This document shows, piece after piece, positions 56,557 through 63,934 of a DNA stretch of 64,000 nt. Made by a program: the position numbers and the translations under genes. How positions within the stretch are numbered: the stretch's first letter is position 1; each line of letters starts with the position of its first letter. Under the pieces are notes generated by a model. That model ran no database searches, was not told the origin of the DNA, and was given only the letters and a program-made list of their open reading frames with translations. The DNA comes from Clostridiales bacterium. Lineage in GTDB: Bacteria > Bacillota > Clostridia > Oscillospirales > Oscillospiraceae. The stretch lies in contig DQIA01000118.1 in the NCBI GenBank assembly GCA_003525905.1, positions 9,248-73,247 on the forward strand. The letters are read 5' to 3'.

Positions 56557-56862
56557 ATAAAAATCAGAGACAGCGCTTTGCGGCTGGATGTGCCCGCTTC
56601 GACACTGCGATTTTATGACAAGGAGGGGCTGCTGCCGTTTGTGGAGCGGTTGCCGGGCGGCATCCGCATGTTTCAGGACACCGATCTGGAGTGGCTGCAG
56701 ATCACCTGCTGCATGAAAAAGGCCGGAATGTCCATCCGTGACATCCGGCAGTATATCGAGCAGGCCCAGCGGGGAGACGATACCATCGTCCTGCGCCTCG
56801 CAATGTTCCGCCGCCAGCGCGAGTTCCTGCCCGACCGGCAGGAACTGCGAATGGAGAAATGA
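56557..56862 (+). pseudogene. Truncated MerR-family regulator (probable remnant)
   Basis: The frame shows a MerR DNA-binding domain (LRLDVPASTLRFYDKEGLLPF..GGIRMFQDTDLEWLQITCCMKKAGMSIRDIRQYIE). By alignment the protein should begin at ATA 56557 (IKIRDSALRL); the first canonical codon is TTG 56578, inside helix one. The C-terminal dimerisation helix breaks off after RRQREFL, giving about 94-101 residues instead of the usual 120-140. Missing start and shortened end suggest decay. Confidence 0.6.
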
Positions 56863-56913: not shown

Positions 56914-57501
56914 TCATATTGCATCGTATACGACGGAGAGGACATAGTCCTCCGTGACGGTCTGCTCGAGGCGGCGGCCGAACAGCGTTTCGTGCAAGCC
57001 GTCTGCTGCTGCGGCGGGCAGCGTGCGGAAATCGACGCCGAGGCCTTCGCCGGTGTATTTGACCCATGCCTCCTTCGCGGTCCAGAGCTGCAGGAAGCGC
57101 AGCGAGTCGAACCGGCCGCCCGGCACGGTGAAAACCAGCTCCTCCGGCGTGCAGATGCGCGCAGCCAGCGCGGCGCGGACGGGCCGCCGCGCCTCAAGAT
57201 CGATGCCGACAGGGCCGCCGTGCACGGCGCAGCACACGAAGTTCCCGGAGTGGCTGCAGTTGAAGGCCGGGCCGTCTGGCACATAGGGCTTGCCGTTCGT
57301 CCCGGTCCGGATCGCGGGTTCCTCTGCACCGGCCTCACGGAGCAGCGTGCGCGCCAGATGGTCGGCGCAGATGCTGCGGGCGCGGTCATCGGGTCGGCGG
57401 AACTGCTGCCAGCGGGCGCGGCGCTCCGGCTCTGCTGCGGCTTCCCACCGGGCAAGCTCCGCTGCGGAGACGGTCCGGATGTCAAGAACGGCGCAGCGCA
57501 T
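56914..57501 (-). CDS. 4'-phosphopantetheinyl transferase (Sfp type)
   Basis: Transfers the phosphopantetheine arm of CoA to a serine of carrier proteins. It is 195 aa, a pseudodimer of the Sfp/AcpT class. Signatures: GKPYVPDGPAFNCSHSGNFV, GIDLEARRPV with magnesium-binding Asp/Glu, and WTAKEAWVKYTGEGLG. It overlaps the 3' end of the glycosyltransferase gene by 20 bp. Two carrier domains encoded 2-5 kb away (Ser590 of the adenylation fusion, Ser38 of the free ACP) are plausible substrates. Confidence 0.93.
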   Translation of the reverse strand: MRCAVLDIRTVSAAELARWEAAAEPERRARWQQFRRPDDRARSICADHLARTLLREAGAEEPAIRTGTNGKPYVPDGPAFNCSHSGNFVCCAVHGGPVGIDLEARRPVRAALAARICTPEELVFTVPGGRFDSLRFLQLWTAKEAWVKYTGEGLGVDFRTLPAAAADGLHETLFGRRLEQTVTEDYVLSVVYDAI

Positions 57502-58516
57502 AGCTTGACCACCACGGGCCCGTCAGGCGGACGTAGGCATATTCCAGCGGAACGGTGAGTACAGAGCCGATGAGCCATGCGGCAAACAGCGGCAGGCCGA
57601 GCGGGTGCAGGATGCAGCAGAACAGCAGCCGCAGCGACGTGCGCACGGCCGCGCCGAACAGCATGCGCGGCCCACAGGCATAACGCACGCGGCGGAAGAC
57701 CAGAAAACGGTTGAAGCAGTAGCTCAGCGCCGCGCTGCCCGCACCACACAGCGGGATGGAAAACAGGAAGAAATGCCACCCGAGCGTCAGCGACAGCAGC
57801 AGGATAGCAGCTACATGCAGCAGCCACGCCAGAACGGAGCCGCGCGCCGTATCCAGCATACGGCGATAAATGCGCAGCGTATCGCGCAGTGGGTCAAAGT
57901 GTGAGCTCTGGTTGCCGTCGAGATAGACCGTCTCGATGGGCAGCTGCGTGATGGACAGCTCCTGCCGCGCGGCGTAGAGCAGCACGTTCATTTCATAATC
58001 ATATTTCTCTCCGCCGATCTCCGTGAGCCACGGAAGGCAGTCCGTGGAAAAGCCGCGCAGGCCGGACTGGTTGTCCTTCAGAAAGCAGCCTGCCGCCAGC
58101 GAAAAGAAGAAGCGCGACAGGTCGTTGCCCACGCGCGAGCGGAGCGGGACGCTTTTCCCGTGCAGCGTCCGGGTGGTGAGCACGAAGCGGCTGCCGGACA
58201 GCAGTGCCTCACGCACGCGCAGGATGTCCGCCACAGTGTGCTGGCCGTCGGCATCTGCGGTGATGAATGCGCGGCAGCCCTGCGGGTCCGCAGCCAGATG
58301 GCGCAGGGCGCATTTCAGTGCGCGGCCCTTGCCCCTGTTCTCAGGGCAGGTCAGGACCTCGGCATAGGGCAGCAGCGCGGAAAAAATATCCGCATAGGCA
58401 GGGCCGCTGCCGTCGTCCGTGACGATCAGCCGGAAGTTCTCCCGGTGCAGGGCCTGCACCAGCGAGATCAGAACGCTATCCGGCTGATACGCCGGGATCA
58501 AAACTGCGATCTCCAT
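57482..58516 (-). CDS. Bifunctional family 2 glycosyltransferase/GtrA-like protein
   Basis: 344 aa. The N-terminal GT-A domain (~1-215) resembles polyprenyl-phosphate glycosyltransferases: VLIPAYQPDSVL, VTDDGSG, FITADADGQHTVADI and LKDNQSGLRGF. The C-terminal part (~225-340) has four membrane helices with CFNRFLVFRR, the GtrA pattern. Such fusions make polyprenyl-phosphate sugars or flip them for envelope glycosylation. The neighbouring PPTase is coupled by overlap. The sugar is unknown. Confidence 0.88.
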   Translation of the reverse strand: MEIAVLIPAYQPDSVLISLVQALHRENFRLIVTDDGSGPAYADIFSALLPYAEVLTCPENRGKGRALKCALRHLAADPQGCRAFITADADGQHTVADILRVREALLSGSRFVLTTRTLHGKSVPLRSRVGNDLSRFFFSLAAGCFLKDNQSGLRGFSTDCLPWLTEIGGEKYDYEMNVLLYAARQELSITQLPIETVYLDGNQSSHFDPLRDTLRIYRRMLDTARGSVLAWLLHVAAILLLSLTLGWHFFLFSIPLCGAGSAALSYCFNRFLVFRRVRYACGPRMLFGAAVRTSLRLLFCCILHPLGLPLFAAWLIGSVLTVPLEYAYVRLTGPWWSSYALRRS

Positions 58517-58552
58517 TTCTTTCCCCCTCTGTGGTCGGTCTGCGCTGCTTCG

Positions 58553-58735
58553 TCATGCGTGGAAGCACAGCAGCAGAAGCCCGCCCAGAAATGTCAGGAG
58601 ATCCAGCAGCCCGAGCGCCCAGTCATAGCCGCCTGGCATCCGGAACAGGTTGACCAGCAGCACGACGGCACTCAGCAGCAGGAAAAACACACCGAAGAAC
58701 AGCCTGGCAAGGGGATGCCCCTTTTTCTTTTCCAT
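58553..58735 (-). CDS. Small two-helix membrane protein
   Basis: 60 aa: MEKKKGHP, then two hydrophobic segments (LARLFFGVFFLLLSAVVLLVNLF and WALGLLDLLTFLGGLLLLCF) joined by RMPGGYD. GGAGG sits 7 nt before the ATG. It is upstream of the glycosyltransferase gene in the same direction (36 bp gap), so probably co-transcribed. No family recognised. Confidence 0.65.
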   Translation of the reverse strand: MEKKKGHPLARLFFGVFFLLLSAVVLLVNLFRMPGGYDWALGLLDLLTFLGGLLLLCFHA

Positions 58736-58841
58736 TCGGGTACCTCCATACATTATATCAATTTATTATATTTCCGGGCCCGGCCATTGTCAAGGACGGC
58801 GGCGCGGAAACGGGATTTTTCCGCCGGAAAACGCCGCGTTG

Positions 58842-58870
58842 GTTGACGCGCGCGGGCGGGTATGGTATGA
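58842..58870 (+). promoter_or_regulatory. Promoter of the acyl-transfer operon
   Basis: TTGACG (58842-58847), 17 nt, TATGAT (58865-58870), 63 bp before the first gene. Confidence 0.75.
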
Positions 58871-58933
58871 TACCCTTATATAACCCCGGCGGGGCAGCAT
58901 GGGCCTGCGCCGGTAGTGAGGAGACAGAACAGC

Positions 58934-60838
58934 ATGGTTTTTTGGAAACGGGAGCTGCGGGAGCTGGAGGCTTCCGGGCACCGGTTCGAGGATATTTTCC
59001 GCATTTTTTCGACGGAATTCACGGACACGCCCTTTTCTCTGCAGTTTACGGCCGGGCAGACGCAGCGCATGAGCTATGCGGAGCTGACGGCTCTGACGAA
59101 CCGCTTGGCGCGTGTGCTGCATGCGCACTTTGCCGGGCAGGAGGGCGCGTTTCTGGCGATCCGCATGGAAAATTCTCCCCTGTGGGTCGCGGCGTTTTTT
59201 GGCACGCTGATGGCGGGCTTTCGGCCTCTGCTGCTGAACCTGCGGCTGGACGACGCGACGCTGGCCCCGGTCGAGCAGCTGGCGGCGGGCGTTCTGACGG
59301 ACCGGCCGCGCGCGGGCTGTATCGATCTGTCCGCGGCCGGTGATGCGGCGGGATTCACGCCCGTCTGGGCCGATGAGATCGCCCTGATGACCTCCGGCAC
59401 GACCGGCACGCCGAAGCTCGTGCTCTATGACGGCGCTGCCATCACGGCGCAGCTGCTGCAGTCTGAGAGCATCGTGCGCAAGTGCCCGGAGGTCAAGCAC
59501 GACCGGCTGGCGCGCGAGCTGCGGATGCTGGCATTTTTGCCGTTCTATCATATTTTCGGCCTGATGGCCTCGCTCTTGTGGTTCATTTTCTTCGGCGTGA
59601 CGTTCGTGTTTCTCGAGCGCTACGACAGCCGCAGCATCCAGTATGCCTGCAAGGTCGGCCGCGTGACGCACTTTTTTGCTGTGCCCGCCGTGTGGGAGCA
59701 GACGGCCCGCCAGCTCCTGCGCGAGGCAGAGCGGCAGGGGCAGAAGGAAAAGCTCCTGCGCGCCGTGCGCTTCTCCAACGGGCTGCAGTCCGTCTTCCCG
59801 CGGCTCGGCGCAAGGCTGGCGCGGCGCGTGCTGTTCCGCCGTGTGCGGGAACAGGCGCTCGGCACGGAGCCAATGTTCTGCATCAGCGGCGGAGGCTTCC
59901 TGCAGCCGCAGGCGGCCGAGCTGATGAACGGCCTCGGCTACGGCATGCACAACGGCTACGGCATGACGGAGACGGGCATCCTGTCCGTCGAGCTGTCGCG
60001 GCGGGCCAAATGGCGGCTGTCCGGCGGCGTCGGTCTGCCTCTGCAGGCGCTCTCCGGCGGCTGGCGCATTGCGGAAGACGGCGTGCTGGAGCTGCGCTCT
60101 CCGCTTCTATACACGGCCATGCTTGAAAACGGTGTGCGCGTGCCGCGCGATCCGGAGGCATGGTTCCGCACGCGGGACGTCTTCCGCGCCGAGGGCGGCC
60201 GGTGGTATATGGAGGCCCGGCAGGGCGACCTGATCATCGGTGCAAACGGTGAAAATCTCAGTCCGGATCTGATCGAGCAGCGCCTTGCCCTGCAGGCCGG
60301 GACGGCCAGTTGTGTGCTCGGCATGGAGCTGGAGGGCGATGAGCGCCCCGTGCTGATCGTGCAGACGGCTGCGGACGACTATGCAAGAGCCAGAGCCTCC
60401 GCTGCGGCCTATGAGGCGGTCGCCCGCCTGCCGCTGACGATGCGCCCGGCGCGTATTTTCCTGACGGAGCAGGAGCTGCCCATCAGCTTCGGCAAGCCCC
60501 GCCGCGCAGAGCTGCGCAAAAAACTGGCGGACGGCTCGATCTTCCTGACCCCGGCGCACCGGCCGGAGCCGGAGGAGCTGACCCGGCTGGAGGACGAGAG
60601 CAGCCGCGCGCTCGTGCAGGAGCTGTGTGAGCTTCTCGGCTCCGTGACGGGGCAGACCGTCGGCCCGGACACGCAGCTCCTGCAGGAGCTCGGCGTGGAC
60701 AGCCTGACCTACTATAATATTTTTTCCGCCGTTTCGGAGCGCTACGGCATCAGCCTGACGATGGATGCCGAGCACCCGCTGTTCACGGCGCGGGATTTTG
60801 CCGCCGCAGTGCAGGCGGAGCGGGAGGCGGTCGAATGA
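58934..60838 (+). CDS. AMP-dependent acyl/amino acid synthetase fused to an acyl carrier domain
   Basis: 634 aa. Residues ~1-505 form an ANL adenylating enzyme: P-loop-like LMTSGTTGTPKL, FLPFYHIFGL, a substrate-site stretch NGYGMTETG, RTRDVFR and the catalytic-lysine region ISFGKPRRAEL. Residues ~545-634 are a carrier domain with phosphopantetheine site Ser590 in ELGVDSLTYYN. The enzyme should load an acyl (or aminoacyl) group on its own carrier. The ATG at 58934 has AGGAG 10 nt upstream. It is the first gene of a six-gene operon with acyltransferases. Confidence 0.9.
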   Translation: MVFWKRELRELEASGHRFEDIFRIFSTEFTDTPFSLQFTAGQTQRMSYAELTALTNRLARVLHAHFAGQEGAFLAIRMENSPLWVAAFFGTLMAGFRPLLLNLRLDDATLAPVEQLAAGVLTDRPRAGCIDLSAAGDAAGFTPVWADEIALMTSGTTGTPKLVLYDGAAITAQLLQSESIVRKCPEVKHDRLARELRMLAFLPFYHIFGLMASLLWFIFFGVTFVFLERYDSRSIQYACKVGRVTHFFAVPAVWEQTARQLLREAERQGQKEKLLRAVRFSNGLQSVFPRLGARLARRVLFRRVREQALGTEPMFCISGGGFLQPQAAELMNGLGYGMHNGYGMTETGILSVELSRRAKWRLSGGVGLPLQALSGGWRIAEDGVLELRSPLLYTAMLENGVRVPRDPEAWFRTRDVFRAEGGRWYMEARQGDLIIGANGENLSPDLIEQRLALQAGTASCVLGMELEGDERPVLIVQTAADDYARARASAAAYEAVARLPLTMRPARIFLTEQELPISFGKPRRAELRKKLADGSIFLTPAHRPEPEELTRLEDESSRALVQELCELLGSVTGQTVGPDTQLLQELGVDSLTYYNIFSAVSERYGISLTMDAEHPLFTARDFAAAVQAEREAVE

Positions 60839-61458
60839 AGCTGCTGTTCCGCTGGATCAACAAGCTGCTGTGCGGCTGGAACGTCGGCCTGTATTTCCGG
60901 CCGCGCATCCGCTACGAGGGCAAGAAGTGCCTCCCGGCCTTTACACGCGGCCCGGCAATTATCATCACGAACCATAAGAACCAGATGGACTTTCTTCTGG
61001 TGCTGTATCTGTTCTATTTCCGTTATGTCCGCTGCCTCGTCGGTAAGACGTTTTATGAGTGCAACCGCTTCCTGAACTGGTGCCTGCGGATGCTCGGTGC
61101 CATCAAGGTCGATCGCTTCTCGTTCGGCATGGACTTTTTCTGCGAGTCGGTCGAGGCGCTCCGGCGCGGGCAGCTGCTGCTCATCTTCCCGGAGGGGCGC
61201 TTCTCCACGACGGGAGAAATTCTGGAATTCCGCAGCACGGCGGCTTTGCTCGCCCTGCAGACCGATGTGCCCATCATCCCCATGTGGCACTCCGTGAACT
61301 ATGGCTTCGGCAAGCGCACGGACGTCGTCATCGGCGAGCCGATCCGCCTTTCGGAGCTGTGCAGCACGGCAAACCCGGACGCGGCGGAGCTGGACCGCCT
61401 GACGGCCATCCTGCGTGACAAGGTCATCGAGCTGCGCGGCATGGCGCAGGAGGCGTGA
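60835..61458 (+). CDS. 1-acyl-sn-glycerol-3-phosphate acyltransferase-like protein (PlsC family), copy 1
   Basis: 207 aa. The acyltransferase box NHKNQMDF (H-x4-D) lies near residue 43, and FPEGRFSTTGE near 120 binds the phosphate acceptor. A hydrophobic helix around LVLYLFYF anchors it to the membrane. It overlaps the synthetase gene by 4 bp. PlsC enzymes use acyl-ACP, and here acyl-carrier may come from the upstream fusion. The acceptor may be a lysolipid or another hydroxyl or amino group. Confidence 0.9.
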   Translation: MKLLFRWINKLLCGWNVGLYFRPRIRYEGKKCLPAFTRGPAIIITNHKNQMDFLLVLYLFYFRYVRCLVGKTFYECNRFLNWCLRMLGAIKVDRFSFGMDFFCESVEALRRGQLLLIFPEGRFSTTGEILEFRSTAALLALQTDVPIIPMWHSVNYGFGKRTDVVIGEPIRLSELCSTANPDAAELDRLTAILRDKVIELRGMAQEA

Positions 61459-61461
61459 GCC

Positions 61462-62196
61462 ATGCGGAAACTGCTGCAGCGGCTGTGGGATATCGCCGCA
61501 GATTTTGCAAATTTCATGGGCGGCCTCGGCATGCGCCTTGTCTGGCTGCCGAAGCTCCATTTTTCGCCCGGCGCGGAGCAAGTGCGCACGGACCCCGGTC
61601 CGGCGCTGTTCGTGCTGAATCACAGCTGGTGGATGGATGCCCCGATGCTGTGCCTGCTGTGCCGCCGCAGACGCATTTCCGTCGTGGCGGCGGGTGAGAT
61701 GTTCACGGGGGTGCGCAGCCTTGCCATGCGCTCGCTGCGCTGCATCCCGGTCGACCGGGCCGCGGGCGCGGACCTGAGCTTCTTCCATGAGGCGCTGCGC
61801 CGCCTGCGTGCGGGCCGGTGCGTCGCCATCTTCCCGGAGGGGGCGCTCAACCCGACGGAAACGCTCCTGCCGTTCAAGCAGGGCGCGGCGCTGCTGGCCC
61901 TGCAGGCCGGGGTGCCGGTCATCCCCGTCTACAGCGCGGGGAATTATCAGCCGTTCCAGCGGCTGCAGCTCCAGTTCGGCGCGCCCATCGTGCTGACGCA
62001 GCGGCCGAACGCCGCGGGCGTGCAGGAGGCGACGCAGTGCCTGCAGGAGGCCATGGAGCGCCTGCAGGAGGAGCTTTATCTGGAGATGAAACCGAAATAT
62101 CGGACGCGCGCGGCTGAATTCCACCGCCGCTTCCGGGAAACAACGCTCCGGCGGCAGCGGGAGCAGCAAAAAGGAGAGAGAAATCATGACGCTTGA
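61462..62196 (+). CDS. PlsC-family acyltransferase, copy 2
   Basis: 244 aa. H-x4-D box NHSWWMDAP near residue 54 and FPEGALNPTETLLPFKQGAA near 127. It differs strongly from copy 1, so it is not a recent duplicate. It starts 3 bp after copy 1 and overlaps the free ACP gene by 11 bp. Two distinct acyltransferases in one operon suggest stepwise acylation at two positions. Confidence 0.9.
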   Translation: MRKLLQRLWDIAADFANFMGGLGMRLVWLPKLHFSPGAEQVRTDPGPALFVLNHSWWMDAPMLCLLCRRRRISVVAAGEMFTGVRSLAMRSLRCIPVDRAAGADLSFFHEALRRLRAGRCVAIFPEGALNPTETLLPFKQGAALLALQAGVPVIPVYSAGNYQPFQRLQLQFGAPIVLTQRPNAAGVQEATQCLQEAMERLQEELYLEMKPKYRTRAAEFHRRFRETTLRRQREQQKGERNHDA

Positions 62197-62434
62197 ACGC
62201 CTGATCCGTGTTGCGCAGACGGCGCTGGAGGGCTCGGAGGCAGATCTCGGCCATGTGACGGCGCAGACCCGCCTGCAGGAGGACCTCGGCCTGAACAGCA
62301 TCACGATGCTGATGCTCATGATCGGCATCGAGGACGAATTTTCCATCCGCTTCCCGACGGAACGCCTGCCGGAGCTGCACACCGTTGGCGATGTGGTCGC
62401 CGTCATCGAGGAGCTGCTCCATGCTCCGGCGTAA
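62186..62434 (+). CDS. Acyl carrier protein (stand-alone)
   Basis: 82 aa, the size of AcpP. The phosphopantetheine attachment site is Ser38 in LGLNSITMLML; the usual DSL is replaced by NSI, which marks it as a specialised carrier rather than the fatty acid synthase ACP. GGAGAGAG precedes the ATG. It is translationally coupled to both neighbours (11 bp and 14 bp overlaps). Confidence 0.9.
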   Translation: MTLERLIRVAQTALEGSEADLGHVTAQTRLQEDLGLNSITMLMLMIGIEDEFSIRFPTERLPELHTVGDVVAVIEELLHAPA

Positions 62435-62831
62435 ACGGCTGGCAGACCTGCCGGAACACTGGGACTTCGGCGAGCTGACGCCCGGTGCGCAGGTGCGTGT
62501 GCGGCGCAGCGGGTATTACCACCATGGCATTTACATCGGAAACGGTGAGATCGTCCATTTTGACGGCTCGCCGAATGAGCAGGATGCTGCGGCCGTGCGG
62601 GTGCGCCGCACCGGCATGGAGGAATTCCTGCGCGGCGGCCTGCCGGAACTTCGTATCTATGGCCGCGCGGAGCGAAAGCTGCTGCGCGCGCCGGATGAGA
62701 TCGTTGCAGCCGCGCTTTCTGCCGTCGGCCGCAGCGGCTATGACTATCGGACGAACAATTGTGAGCACTTTTCCAACGAATGCGCGTTTGGAGAGCACTA
62801 CAGCCGCCAGAGCGGGGAGGGAAACGAATGA
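62421..62831 (+). CDS. LRAT/NlpC-P60-like putative acyltransferase or amidase
   Basis: 136 aa. LRAT-fold landmarks are present: His34-His35 in YYHHGIYIGNGEIVHF and the catalytic NCEHF with Cys114. Such proteins form thioester intermediates and act as phospholipid acyltransferases or hydrolases. In an operon with two carrier proteins and two PlsC enzymes, acyl transfer to or from a lipid is the natural guess. The start at 62421 lies in the ACP gene end; a good Shine-Dalgarno is lacking, consistent with coupling. Confidence 0.82.
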   Translation: MLRRKRLADLPEHWDFGELTPGAQVRVRRSGYYHHGIYIGNGEIVHFDGSPNEQDAAAVRVRRTGMEEFLRGGLPELRIYGRAERKLLRAPDEIVAAALSAVGRSGYDYRTNNCEHFSNECAFGEHYSRQSGEGNE

Positions 62832-63934
62832 AAAAGTGGTGGATCGTTTTGGCAGTCGTTCTGACGATCGCTGTCGCGGCGGTTGTTGGCTATATGCTGC
62901 ACACCGCGCCGCGCGGCGTGGAGAGCCTGCAGGCCACGCAGCCGGAGACGGCGGCGCCCACGGAGCCCGCAACAGAGCGCCCGACGGAGCCGCCGACCGA
63001 AGCGCCGACGGAGCCGCCCATGGAGGCGGGCGAGACGCTGGTCCTCAACGGGACGGAGCTTGTCACGGCCGTTTCGGACGGAACGGAATACGTTTCGGCA
63101 GACGCGCTGCAGCAGGCGGGGCTTCCCCTGCCGGAGGCGGAGCCGCTTCAAAACGGCGGGATGGACTATTATGTGCTGTCCGCCGTCTCGGAGGAGAATC
63201 GCTGCGCGGAATATGTCGACGACGAGACCGGACTTCGCTATCTGACGCCCGGTGCGGCGCGCTTTTCCATCGAGCAGAGCGTGAACGTGCCGGTGCTGAT
63301 GTACCATGCTGTCAGCGACAATATGTGGGGCATCGATGAGCTGTTTGTCAGCCCGTCGTCCATGGAGGAGCAGCTTCGGTATCTGGTGGACAACGGCTAT
63401 GAGCCGATCTGGTTCTCCGATCTGGCGGAGCTGGAGCAGTACGAGAAGCCTGTCATCCTGACGTTTGACGACGGCTATGACGACAACTACACAGAGCTTC
63501 TGCCGCTGCTGCGGAAATACAATGTCAAAGCGACGGTGTTCATGATCGCCGATGCCATGGGCATGCAGCACAAAATGACGGAGGAGCAGGTGCGCGAGAT
63601 GGCGGATTCCGGCCTCGTTTCCATCCAGAGCCACGGCCTGACTCATGCGAATATGGATGCCATGGACGAGGAGACGCTCATCCGGGAGCTTGGCGAGTCG
63701 CAGCGTATCCTGACGCGCGTGACGGGCCGCCAGCCCTCGGTGCTGTGCTATCCGACGGGCCGCTACAGCAACCTGACGCTCGAGGTTGCAGAGCGCTACT
63801 ACAACTTCGGCCTGAAAATGGTAGGCGGGCAGTACAATACGGCGGACGATCCCTTCCTTGTGAGCCGCTATTACGTCTCGCGGTATACGGGCCTTGACAG
63901 CTTCGCTGCCATGGTCGCCCCTGCGGGCACATAA
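62828..63934 (+). CDS. Polysaccharide deacetylase family protein, membrane anchored
   Basis: 368 aa. An N-terminal membrane helix (~3-22) is followed by a Thr/Pro/Glu linker (~34-62), a small domain, and a NodB homology domain from ~150: LTFDDGYDDNYTEL with the catalytic and metal Asp, and SHGLTH (H-x3-H) for the metal. It probably removes N-acetyl groups from a wall or surface polysaccharide outside the membrane. ATGA overlap with the LRAT-like gene places it as the last gene of the operon. The 66 bp after it to the window end show no feature. Confidence 0.9.
   Translation: MKKWWIVLAVVLTIAVAAVVGYMLHTAPRGVESLQATQPETAAPTEPATERPTEPPTEAPTEPPMEAGETLVLNGTELVTAVSDGTEYVSADALQQAGLPLPEAEPLQNGGMDYYVLSAVSEENRCAEYVDDETGLRYLTPGAARFSIEQSVNVPVLMYHAVSDNMWGIDELFVSPSSMEEQLRYLVDNGYEPIWFSDLAELEQYEKPVILTFDDGYDDNYTELLPLLRKYNVKATVFMIADAMGMQHKMTEEQVREMADSGLVSIQSHGLTHANMDAMDEETLIRELGESQRILTRVTGRQPSVLCYPTGRYSNLTLEVAERYYNFGLKMVGGQYNTADDPFLVSRYYVSRYTGLDSFAAMVAPAGT

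Follow-up and report, generated by a model that had tools for sequence, protein, structure and literature searches.

The window analysed here is a 64,000-nucleotide stretch of contig DQIA01000118.1 (assembly GCA_003525905.1) from a Clostridiales bacterium, and the subject is a gene cluster at its positions 56914-63934, in which a fusion of an AMP-binding (adenylation) domain with an acyl carrier protein (ACP), hereafter AMP-ACP, heads an operon with two PlsC-type acyltransferases, a free-standing ACP, a protein of the LRAT/PLAAT type and a polysaccharide deacetylase, next to a 4'-phosphopantetheinyl transferase (PPTase) and a family 2 glycosyltransferase (GT2) on the opposite strand. Pfam searches over this interval confirmed every gene named in an earlier note, which had been made from the sequence alone, at its place and with its domains. 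The features are the following, with hydrophobicity given as Kyte-Doolittle (KD) values.

56914-57501, minus strand: Sfp-type PPTase, 195 aa (PF01648, 53.4 bits)
57482-58516, minus strand: membrane GT2, putatively of the polyprenyl-phosphate-sugar synthase class (GtrA-like, C-terminal membrane helices), 344 aa (PF00535, 47.6 bits)
58553-58753, minus strand: hydrophobic protein of no known family, 66 aa (hydrophobic segment, KD 2.72)
58765-58793, minus strand: putative sigma-70-like promoter of the minus-strand unit, TTGACA-17-TATAAT (12/12; consensus match only)
58843-58871, plus strand: putative sigma-70-like promoter of the plus-strand operon, TTGACG-17-TATGAT (10/12; consensus match only)
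58934-60838, plus strand: AMP-ACP fusion, probable self-loading acyl-ACP synthetase, 634 aa (PF00501, 149 bits; PF00550, 30.8 bits)
60835-61458, plus strand: PlsC-type acyltransferase 1 (PlsC1), 207 aa, NHX4D motif (PF01553, 80.9 bits)
61462-62196, plus strand: PlsC-type acyltransferase 2 (PlsC2), 244 aa, NHX4D motif (PF01553, 87.2 bits)
62186-62434, plus strand: free-standing ACP, 82 aa, Ser38 (PF00550, 30.8 bits)
62421-62831, plus strand: LRAT/PLAAT-type permuted papain-fold thiol enzyme, 136 aa; His34, His46, Cys114, Cys121 (PF04970, 75.5 bits)
62828-63934, plus strand: polysaccharide deacetylase with an N-terminal hydrophobic anchor, 368 aa (PF01522, 112.3 bits; N-terminal segment, KD 2.75)

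The genes of the operon are tightly packed. With junction lengths computed from the gene coordinates and the chosen starts, AMP-ACP and PlsC1 overlap by 4 bp, the two PlsC genes are separated by 3 bp, and overlaps of 11, 14, and 4 bp follow between PlsC2 and ACP, ACP and LRAT, and LRAT and deacetylase, respectively, which agrees with the overlaps of 4-14 bp and the single gap of 3 bp reported earlier. The AMP-ACP gene probably starts at ATG 58934, preceded by GAGGAG. On the minus strand, the PPTase and GT2 genes overlap by 20 bp, and because of this they look, together with the 66-aa gene, like one divergent unit. The two sigma-70-like sites stand back to back in opposite directions, the second hexamer of the plus-strand site is preceded by TG, and a scan of 5.5 kb gave three such sites, compared with a mean of 0.6 in shuffled sequence.

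This arrangement recurs in relatives. From the 376 AMP-ACP relatives returned by a genome scan, the best 80 were retained, and these 80 loci, along with 36 further regions and the window, made up a layout of 117, in which family labels came from profiles built for this analysis, with Pfam checks on representatives only. After removal of two duplicates (L119, L137) and of 13 loci without a single frame labelled as both AMP and ACP (L030, L072, L073, L124, L144, L146, L147, L150, and L151, as well as L135 and L152-L154, which have no AMP-ACP), 102 loci remained, including the window; four of these (L048, L065, L069, L078) are short Mycoplasmataceae fragments when translated with table 11, and five with short adenylation domains were left out of the tree, which has 97 rows. 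A PlsC gene lies within 9 kb of AMP-ACP in 93 of the 102 loci and directly follows it on the same strand in 82, and nine loci have no PlsC nearby. Scattering of these genes in relatives, which the earlier note had raised against its own proposal, was looked for, and gene order was found to recur instead; the gene set is thus more than a product of chance. Among the loci with AMP-ACP and no PlsC nearby are L031, L036, L037, L038, and L064, where several neighbours resemble, by eye, glycogen-synthesis proteins.

The window belongs to a clade of seven loci (the window and L001-L006; SH-aLRT 95, the window row being long and of unusual composition), and in all seven the GT2 and PPTase genes are divergent from AMP-ACP, PlsC, and PlsC, in this order. 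The LRAT gene is present in the window, L001, L003, L005, and L006; searches of the L002 and L004 genomes yielded none. L001 and L006 also carry nearby genes for a second AMP-binding protein, a lipase of the hormone-sensitive lipase (HSL) type and the FakB family, and the window has none of these. The linkage of LRAT to AMP-ACP can be judged from a sample of 394 genomes of one order, with AMP-ACP called at E<=1e-40 and only LRAT matches of >50 bits counted as strong, so that a 25-bit match in G229 (over the family cut-off) and many matches below cut-off stay outside the count. AMP-ACP is present in 24 of these genomes and strong LRAT in 13 (14 genes), and 11 of the 13 also possess AMP-ACP (Fisher 2e-13), with ten of the 14 LRAT genes positioned within 6 kb of it. 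Four strong LRAT genes remain: those of G018 and G130, where no AMP-ACP was called in the genome, an additional copy in G076 at a distance of 25.6 kb, and a gene of G216 that lies on a different contig.

The other neighbours point to lipid metabolism. Within 9 kb of AMP-ACP in the 93 PlsC-bearing loci, the families encountered are ACP (73 loci), FakB (60), the alpha/beta hydrolase ABHa (58), FakA (55), GT2 (51), LRAT (46), PlsX (33), HSL-type lipase (32), PPTase (28), the major facilitator superfamily (MFS) transporter MFS_2 (21), ABHb (14), deacetylase (8), and lysophospholipase-like protein (7). For FakA, 39 carriers (genomes carrying AMP-ACP) contain 67 family members above cut-off, from which a gene this close would be expected by chance at roughly 1.6% of loci, and in nine of the 12 carriers with a single FakA-family match this match is in the cluster (G007, G008, G011, G076, G119, G159, G182, G213, G396). 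Searches with one representative of each neighbour family returned DegV (FakB1 model below cut-off), FakA-like/YloV, and PlsX above the equivalog cut-off, as well as lysophospholipase-L2-like and HSL-lipase-like proteins, both below cut-off. An N-terminal hydrophobic segment is found in 54 of 64 ABHa and in 14 of 14 ABHb hydrolases; these membrane-anchored hydrolases and the MFS_2 transporter suit a supply role. The distance from phospholipid genes that had been perceived in the window alone is therefore not maintained in relatives, which have FakA-like, DegV/FakB-like, PlsX and lysophospholipase-L2-like proteins.

Of 7999 candidates scored against the AMP-ACP protein, 795 are homologues at E<=1e-3, and in an alignment of 25 sequences the adenylation residues and carrier Ser590 are invariant; Ser38 of the free-standing ACP is likewise invariant, in nine of nine aligned. 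Among NCBIfam models, AMP-ACP scores best with NF004837, which describes a long-chain fatty-acid ligase (103.5 bits, below cut-off), versus 51.8 bits (cut-off, 317.4) with the amino-acid adenylation model, so the aminoacyl substrate entertained in the earlier note is unlikely. As the protein reaches the cut-off of none of the 25 NCBIfam models listed, gene context counts no less than score in assigning it a fatty-acyl substrate. In some relatives, a second, free-standing AMP-binding ligase (approximately 500 aa), absent from the window, is encoded directly before the ACP gene (L001:6436-7947, L006:13372-14910; also L040, L055, L070, L075, L079, L142). Two distant loci, L096:217-3531 (G135) and L098:1138-3939 (G216), encode AMP-binding-ACP fused, in one chain, to a domain of the class I/II aminotransferase fold, which in L096 is BioF/serine-palmitoyltransferase-like, while the L098 frame reaches the contig end; such proteins could possibly start sphingoid or sulfonolipid-type lipids from acyl-ACP on their own.

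The PPTase, found within 9 kb of AMP-ACP in 28 of the 93 loci as given above, has a single match in 32 of the 39 carriers, multiple matches in three, and was not found in four; it is in the cluster in 16 carriers, and in 13 of these 16 it is the sole one found. Profiles of LRAT and PPTase built in this work co-occur in one chain in five loci (L055, L125, L129, L142, L145), and a PlsC and an LRAT do so in L135. In Pfam, LRAT is confirmed in all six and the PlsC part in L135, and the match of the PPTase part exceeds the cut-off in three loci (L055, L129, L142), falls short of it in L125, and is missing in L145. These LRAT-PPTase and PlsC-LRAT fusions tie the parts of the system together, and the former support the PPTase as a partner, as had been proposed; the broader proposal, that acyl groups are activated, held on carriers and transferred by several acyltransferase folds within one system, is supported as well.

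Both window PlsC proteins belong to the PlsC (AGPAT) superfamily, by PF01553 and the NHX4D motif, and among 127 cluster-encoded PlsC frames of at least 180 aa, 126 contain HX4D. One locus, L007, encodes two PlsC domains in one chain. Since each of the 39 carriers has three to eight PF01553 matches (places among the matches listed), the cluster PlsC genes are generally not the only ones in the genome, and a role for them as the sole PlsC is not supported.

The LRAT protein scores well above the curated cut-off of its family (75.5 versus 24.3 bits), and its nearest solved chains by sequence are the human PLAAT/HRASLS proteins. Its predicted model (pLDDT 90.6) matches PLAAT4 (E 2.9e-7), HRASLS2, and PLAAT3, and model and alignment agree on the permuted papain fold with the His...Cys order. 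All 20 aligned sequences share His34, Cys114, and Cys121, and position 46, the presumed site of the third catalytic residue, is His in the window and its nearest relatives and Gln, Glu, or Ala in others. For LRAT itself, passages of one paper describe an important second Cys seven residues past the catalytic one and state that the third triad residue might not be essential (PMC3142127). The fold and the His and Cys residues are thus shared with the vertebrate PLAAT/HRASLS and LRAT thiol acyltransferases and phospholipases A; unlike these, the window protein is bacterial, is linked to carriers by gene context, lacks, judging from its sequence, the hydrophobic C-terminal anchor, and belongs to a family in which the third residue varies. 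No N-terminal membrane segment was found in any of the 41 free-standing and five PPTase-fused LRAT proteins counted. Homologues number 2287 at E<=1e-10, and the 120 matches listed bear public names of a general kind, for instance "lecithin retinol acyltransferase family protein."

On balance, we lean toward reading the operon as an acyl-ACP-dependent module for fatty-acid salvage and glycerolipid re-acylation (Lands-cycle-like) in gut Clostridia. From the domains, gene order, conservation, fusions, catalytic residues, and co-occurrence described above, we infer the reactions, a fatty-acyl group as the substrate, and what LRAT and GT2 would do, as follows. The PPTase would put phosphopantetheine on both carriers, and AMP-ACP would activate a free fatty acid with ATP, loading its own ACP, the free-standing ACP, or both. 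PlsC1 and PlsC2 would then transfer the acyl group from the ACPs to lyso-glycerolipids (a lysophospholipid, or glycerol 3-phosphate and lysophosphatidic acid), and the LRAT/PLAAT-type enzyme would carry acyl as a Cys thioester, either to deacylate or transacylate lipids and so feed the cycle, or to acylate a second acceptor. In relatives, FakB, FakA, and PlsX, the membrane-anchored hydrolases and the MFS_2 transporter would bring in fatty acids and lysolipids. GT2 would provide a sugar linked to polyprenyl phosphate, perhaps destined for a glycolipid acceptor.

Parallels to such a module are found in known systems. The LplT-Aas system of Gram-negatives, a lysophospholipid remodelling system that, in a passage of PMC11416262, is said not to have been identified in Gram-positives, resembles it in the combination of an acyl-ACP synthetase with a PlsC-type acyltransferase, in the MFS-type transporter near 21 of the 93 loci, and in the proposed logic of lysolipid re-acylation; the AMP-binding domain of an Aas synthetase is present in the window, with acyl-ACP specificity presumed. 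Unlike in Aas, the synthetase and the acyltransferases are separate genes, and PlsC1 scores low with Aas-type models (59.8 of 1221 bits with NF006386; 24.9 of 886 bits with NF005959). The cluster also differs in the synthetase's own ACP, the second ACP, the two PlsC, the LRAT/PLAAT enzyme and the PPTase; no transporter was recognized among the Pfam matches of the window operon, and that of relatives is MFS_2 (GPH-like). The comparison points to a function like that of LplT-Aas, which would here be divided among several proteins and would have carriers and a PLAAT-like enzyme of its own. The FakAB-PlsX pathway, by which Gram-positives take up exogenous fatty acids, a general route according to part of PMC10146087, is represented near many clusters by the FakB, FakA, and PlsX genes counted above (60, 55, and 33 loci); the cluster differs in adding an AMP-forming acyl-ACP synthetase route. 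In the AasR-AcpR-SPT start of sphingolipid synthesis in Rhodobacteria, as described in a section of PMC9386255, a specialised acyl-ACP synthetase and a dedicated ACP are likewise employed, and the difference is that the window operon has no alpha-oxoamine synthase; a fused aminotransferase-fold domain is found in the distant L096 and L098. The cluster is real, conserved, and coherent, and would represent a variant of acyl-ACP salvage and remodelling rather than a new kind of system.

The genomes of the hosts were inspected for type II fatty-acid synthesis (FASII) and for the acyltransferase PlsY. FabD, FabF, PlsY, PlsC, PPTase, and FakA were searched in 39 chosen carriers, FabD and FabF in 36 non-carriers taken in list order, and FabD and PlsY in 28 more carriers; carriers were called at E<=1e-40 or 1e-60, so that some non-carriers may have weaker relatives, and the counts cover relatives' genomes, largely metagenome-assembled and of unstated completeness, with the window's own genome outside the sample. 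FabD was detected in 9 of the 39 carriers versus 15 of the 36 non-carriers, plus one fragment (Fisher 0.14), and FabF in 10 versus 15 at E<1e-100, neither difference being significant; the idea that the module simply marks the loss of FASII is accordingly not sustained (FabD undetected in 30 of 39 versus 21 of 36). In the 28 further carriers, FabD was found in 11 and PlsY in 21. A post hoc split, with no correction for relatedness, separates nine Saccharofermentans-type carriers (G007, G008, G645-G651), with FabD in nine and PlsY in one, from the other 58, with FabD in 11 (undetected in 47) and PlsY in 57; for PlsY, the two groups differ at Fisher 1e-8, and for FabD, under the same reservations, the 58 differ from the 36 non-carriers at p 0.03, while for all 67 carriers p is 0.28. 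The broad cluster type of the window is thus found mostly, not always, in genomes with FASII undetected, and many hosts seem unable to make their own fatty acids; the FabD gaps in non-carriers suggest widespread fatty-acid auxotrophy or incomplete genomes in the group. The eight Saccharofermentans-type carriers in which PlsY was undetected, with FabD present, are the genomes of L008, L011, L013, L020, L023, L024, L026, and L032.

Several observations weigh against the salvage and re-acylation module. The window cluster itself lacks FakA, FakB, PlsX, and MFS2. By profile search against solved structures, succinylbenzoate ligases are nearest to the AMP-binding domain, with fatty-acyl ligases also among the first and an acyl-ACP synthetase (8hsy) lower. 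The carriers have other PlsC-family proteins, as noted above. Absence of FASII is common anyway, with FabD undetected or a fragment in 21 of 36 non-carriers, and FabD is detected in three of six genomes of the window's clade neighbours and in all nine Saccharofermentans-type carriers tested. GT2 and deacetylase are unexplained by simple salvage.

These last two proteins give substance to a different explanation, close to the surface lipid or glycolipid suggested in the earlier note: dedicated synthesis of an acylated glycolipid or surface lipid, in which the acyl arm (AMP-ACP, ACP, the two PlsC, and LRAT) would act on a lipid or sugar acceptor, GT2 would form the polyprenyl-phosphate sugar donor, and the deacetylase would trim an amino sugar outside the cell. 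The GT2 domain named in the earlier note was confirmed; its GtrA part was not, as the GtrA profile has no match in the window protein and matches one of 12 aligned relatives, and a DUF5699 match is below the Pfam cut-off. The predicted model (pLDDT 85.5) resembles dolichyl-phosphate mannose synthase (DPMS), with the top PDB matches being DPMS (5mlz/5mm1), ArnC, and GtrB at TM-scores of approximately 0.5 (for 5mlz, Foldseek E 2.2e-11, with a TM-score of only 0.47), and NCBIfam models of the polyprenyl-phosphate glycosyltransferase class score far below cut-off. This fold, the presence of GT2 near AMP-ACP in 51 of the 93 loci and in the entire window clade, the overlap of deacetylase with LRAT in the window, and deacetylase-family genes near seven further loci are all in agreement with a glycolipid product. 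However, GT2 is near in only 19 of the 46 LRAT loci, the neighbour groups that were identified, not every group having been checked, revealed neither a lipid glycosyltransferase nor an exporter that recurs, and the FakA, FakB, and PlsX proteins and hydrolases fit supply and salvage better. The deacetylase, which had been counted as a core part, is not a conserved member and was rejected as such, being near AMP-ACP in eight of the 93 loci, the window included, and in none of L001-L006. We hold the glycolipid explanation to be possible, if rather improbable.

The remaining alternatives carry less weight. In one, the paired PlsC would perform de novo synthesis of phosphatidic acid from acyl-ACP, acting on glycerol 3-phosphate and then on lysophosphatidic acid, in place of PlsY; the near absence of PlsY in the Saccharofermentans-type carriers (the GT2-HSL clade) and the double PlsC chain of L007 speak for it, but nearly all other carriers tested possess PlsY, including G001-G006 of the window's clade neighbours, a divergent PlsY or PlsB could be missed, and the genomes may be incomplete; we regard it as improbable. 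Acylation of lipoprotein N-termini, or of another protein or amine, with the LRAT protein acting like LnsA, a permuted NlpC/P60 protein, and the rest of the module repairing the resulting lysolipid, is brought to mind by LnsA of Staphylococcus aureus, which part of PMC7387801 places in the NlpC/P60 superfamily, with HRASLS (PLAAT) among top HHpred matches. No LnsB/CPBP-type protein is among the Pfam matches of the window operon, relatives not having been searched for one, and the LRAT proteins have no N-terminal membrane segment, whereas LnsAB act on envelope lipoproteins, making this very unlikely. We give slightly less credence still to a small natural-product cluster, similar to nonribosomal peptide synthetases (NRPS) or polyketide synthases and activating an amino or aryl acid, as might be imagined from the adenylation-carrier fusion and the Sfp-type PPTase: the operon has no condensation domain in Pfam, as the earlier note had it, and no ketosynthase domain, the fatty-acid ligase model scores higher than that of amino-acid adenylation, both being below cut-off, synteny spreads across many lineages, and the PPTase is usually a single match in the genome. 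The amino-acid/NRPS reading was set aside on domain content and scores.

Returning to salvage and re-acylation, a bolder version can be put forward, though we think it unlikely as a whole: an ACP-borne Lands cycle, in which the LRAT/PLAAT-type enzyme would draw acyl from acyl-ACP and not from phospholipid, and the two PlsC would build or repair membrane lipids in Gram-positives without FASII, with a Saccharofermentans-type sister module (no LRAT within 9 kb) replacing PlsY and so providing a PlsY-free route to phosphatidic acid. More generally, FabD and FabF were undetected in many of the gut Clostridia tested, which raises the question of how such bacteria acquire and place acyl chains; the cluster offers a concrete gene set linking a PLAAT-type enzyme to acyl carriers, and a candidate system by which Gram-positives might take up and acylate lysolipids.

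Some further features of the locus were evaluated. The 66-aa protein has no Pfam or NCBIfam match and no relative in the 80 loci searched and was rejected as a core member on conservation; it and the deacetylase look like local additions. A MerR-like gene (56578-56862), also with no relative in these 80 loci, was not counted as part of the cluster. ARAGORN calls a tRNA-Cys(aca) at 61896-61973, inside the PlsC2 coding sequence, and the call is probably false. An anti-phage defence reading was dropped, PADLOC giving no matches for seven proteins, and a search for plasmid relatives returned 59 records, all below 60% identity and none spanning 80% of the query. No title or abstract start describing the gene set was found in the open-licence literature searched. 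At the end of a Saccharofermentans-type cluster (L007:12291-14816), a xylose-isomerase-like TIM barrel is fused to an AMP-binding enzyme. Another variant is the compact version of the cluster in termite-gut Mycoplasmataceae (L069:9977-17412; also L048, L065, L073, L078), which in L069 is open under genetic code 4 and comprises frames matching AMP-ACP, MFS_2, PlsC, PlsC, a second AMP-binding protein, ACP, LRAT, and PPTase.

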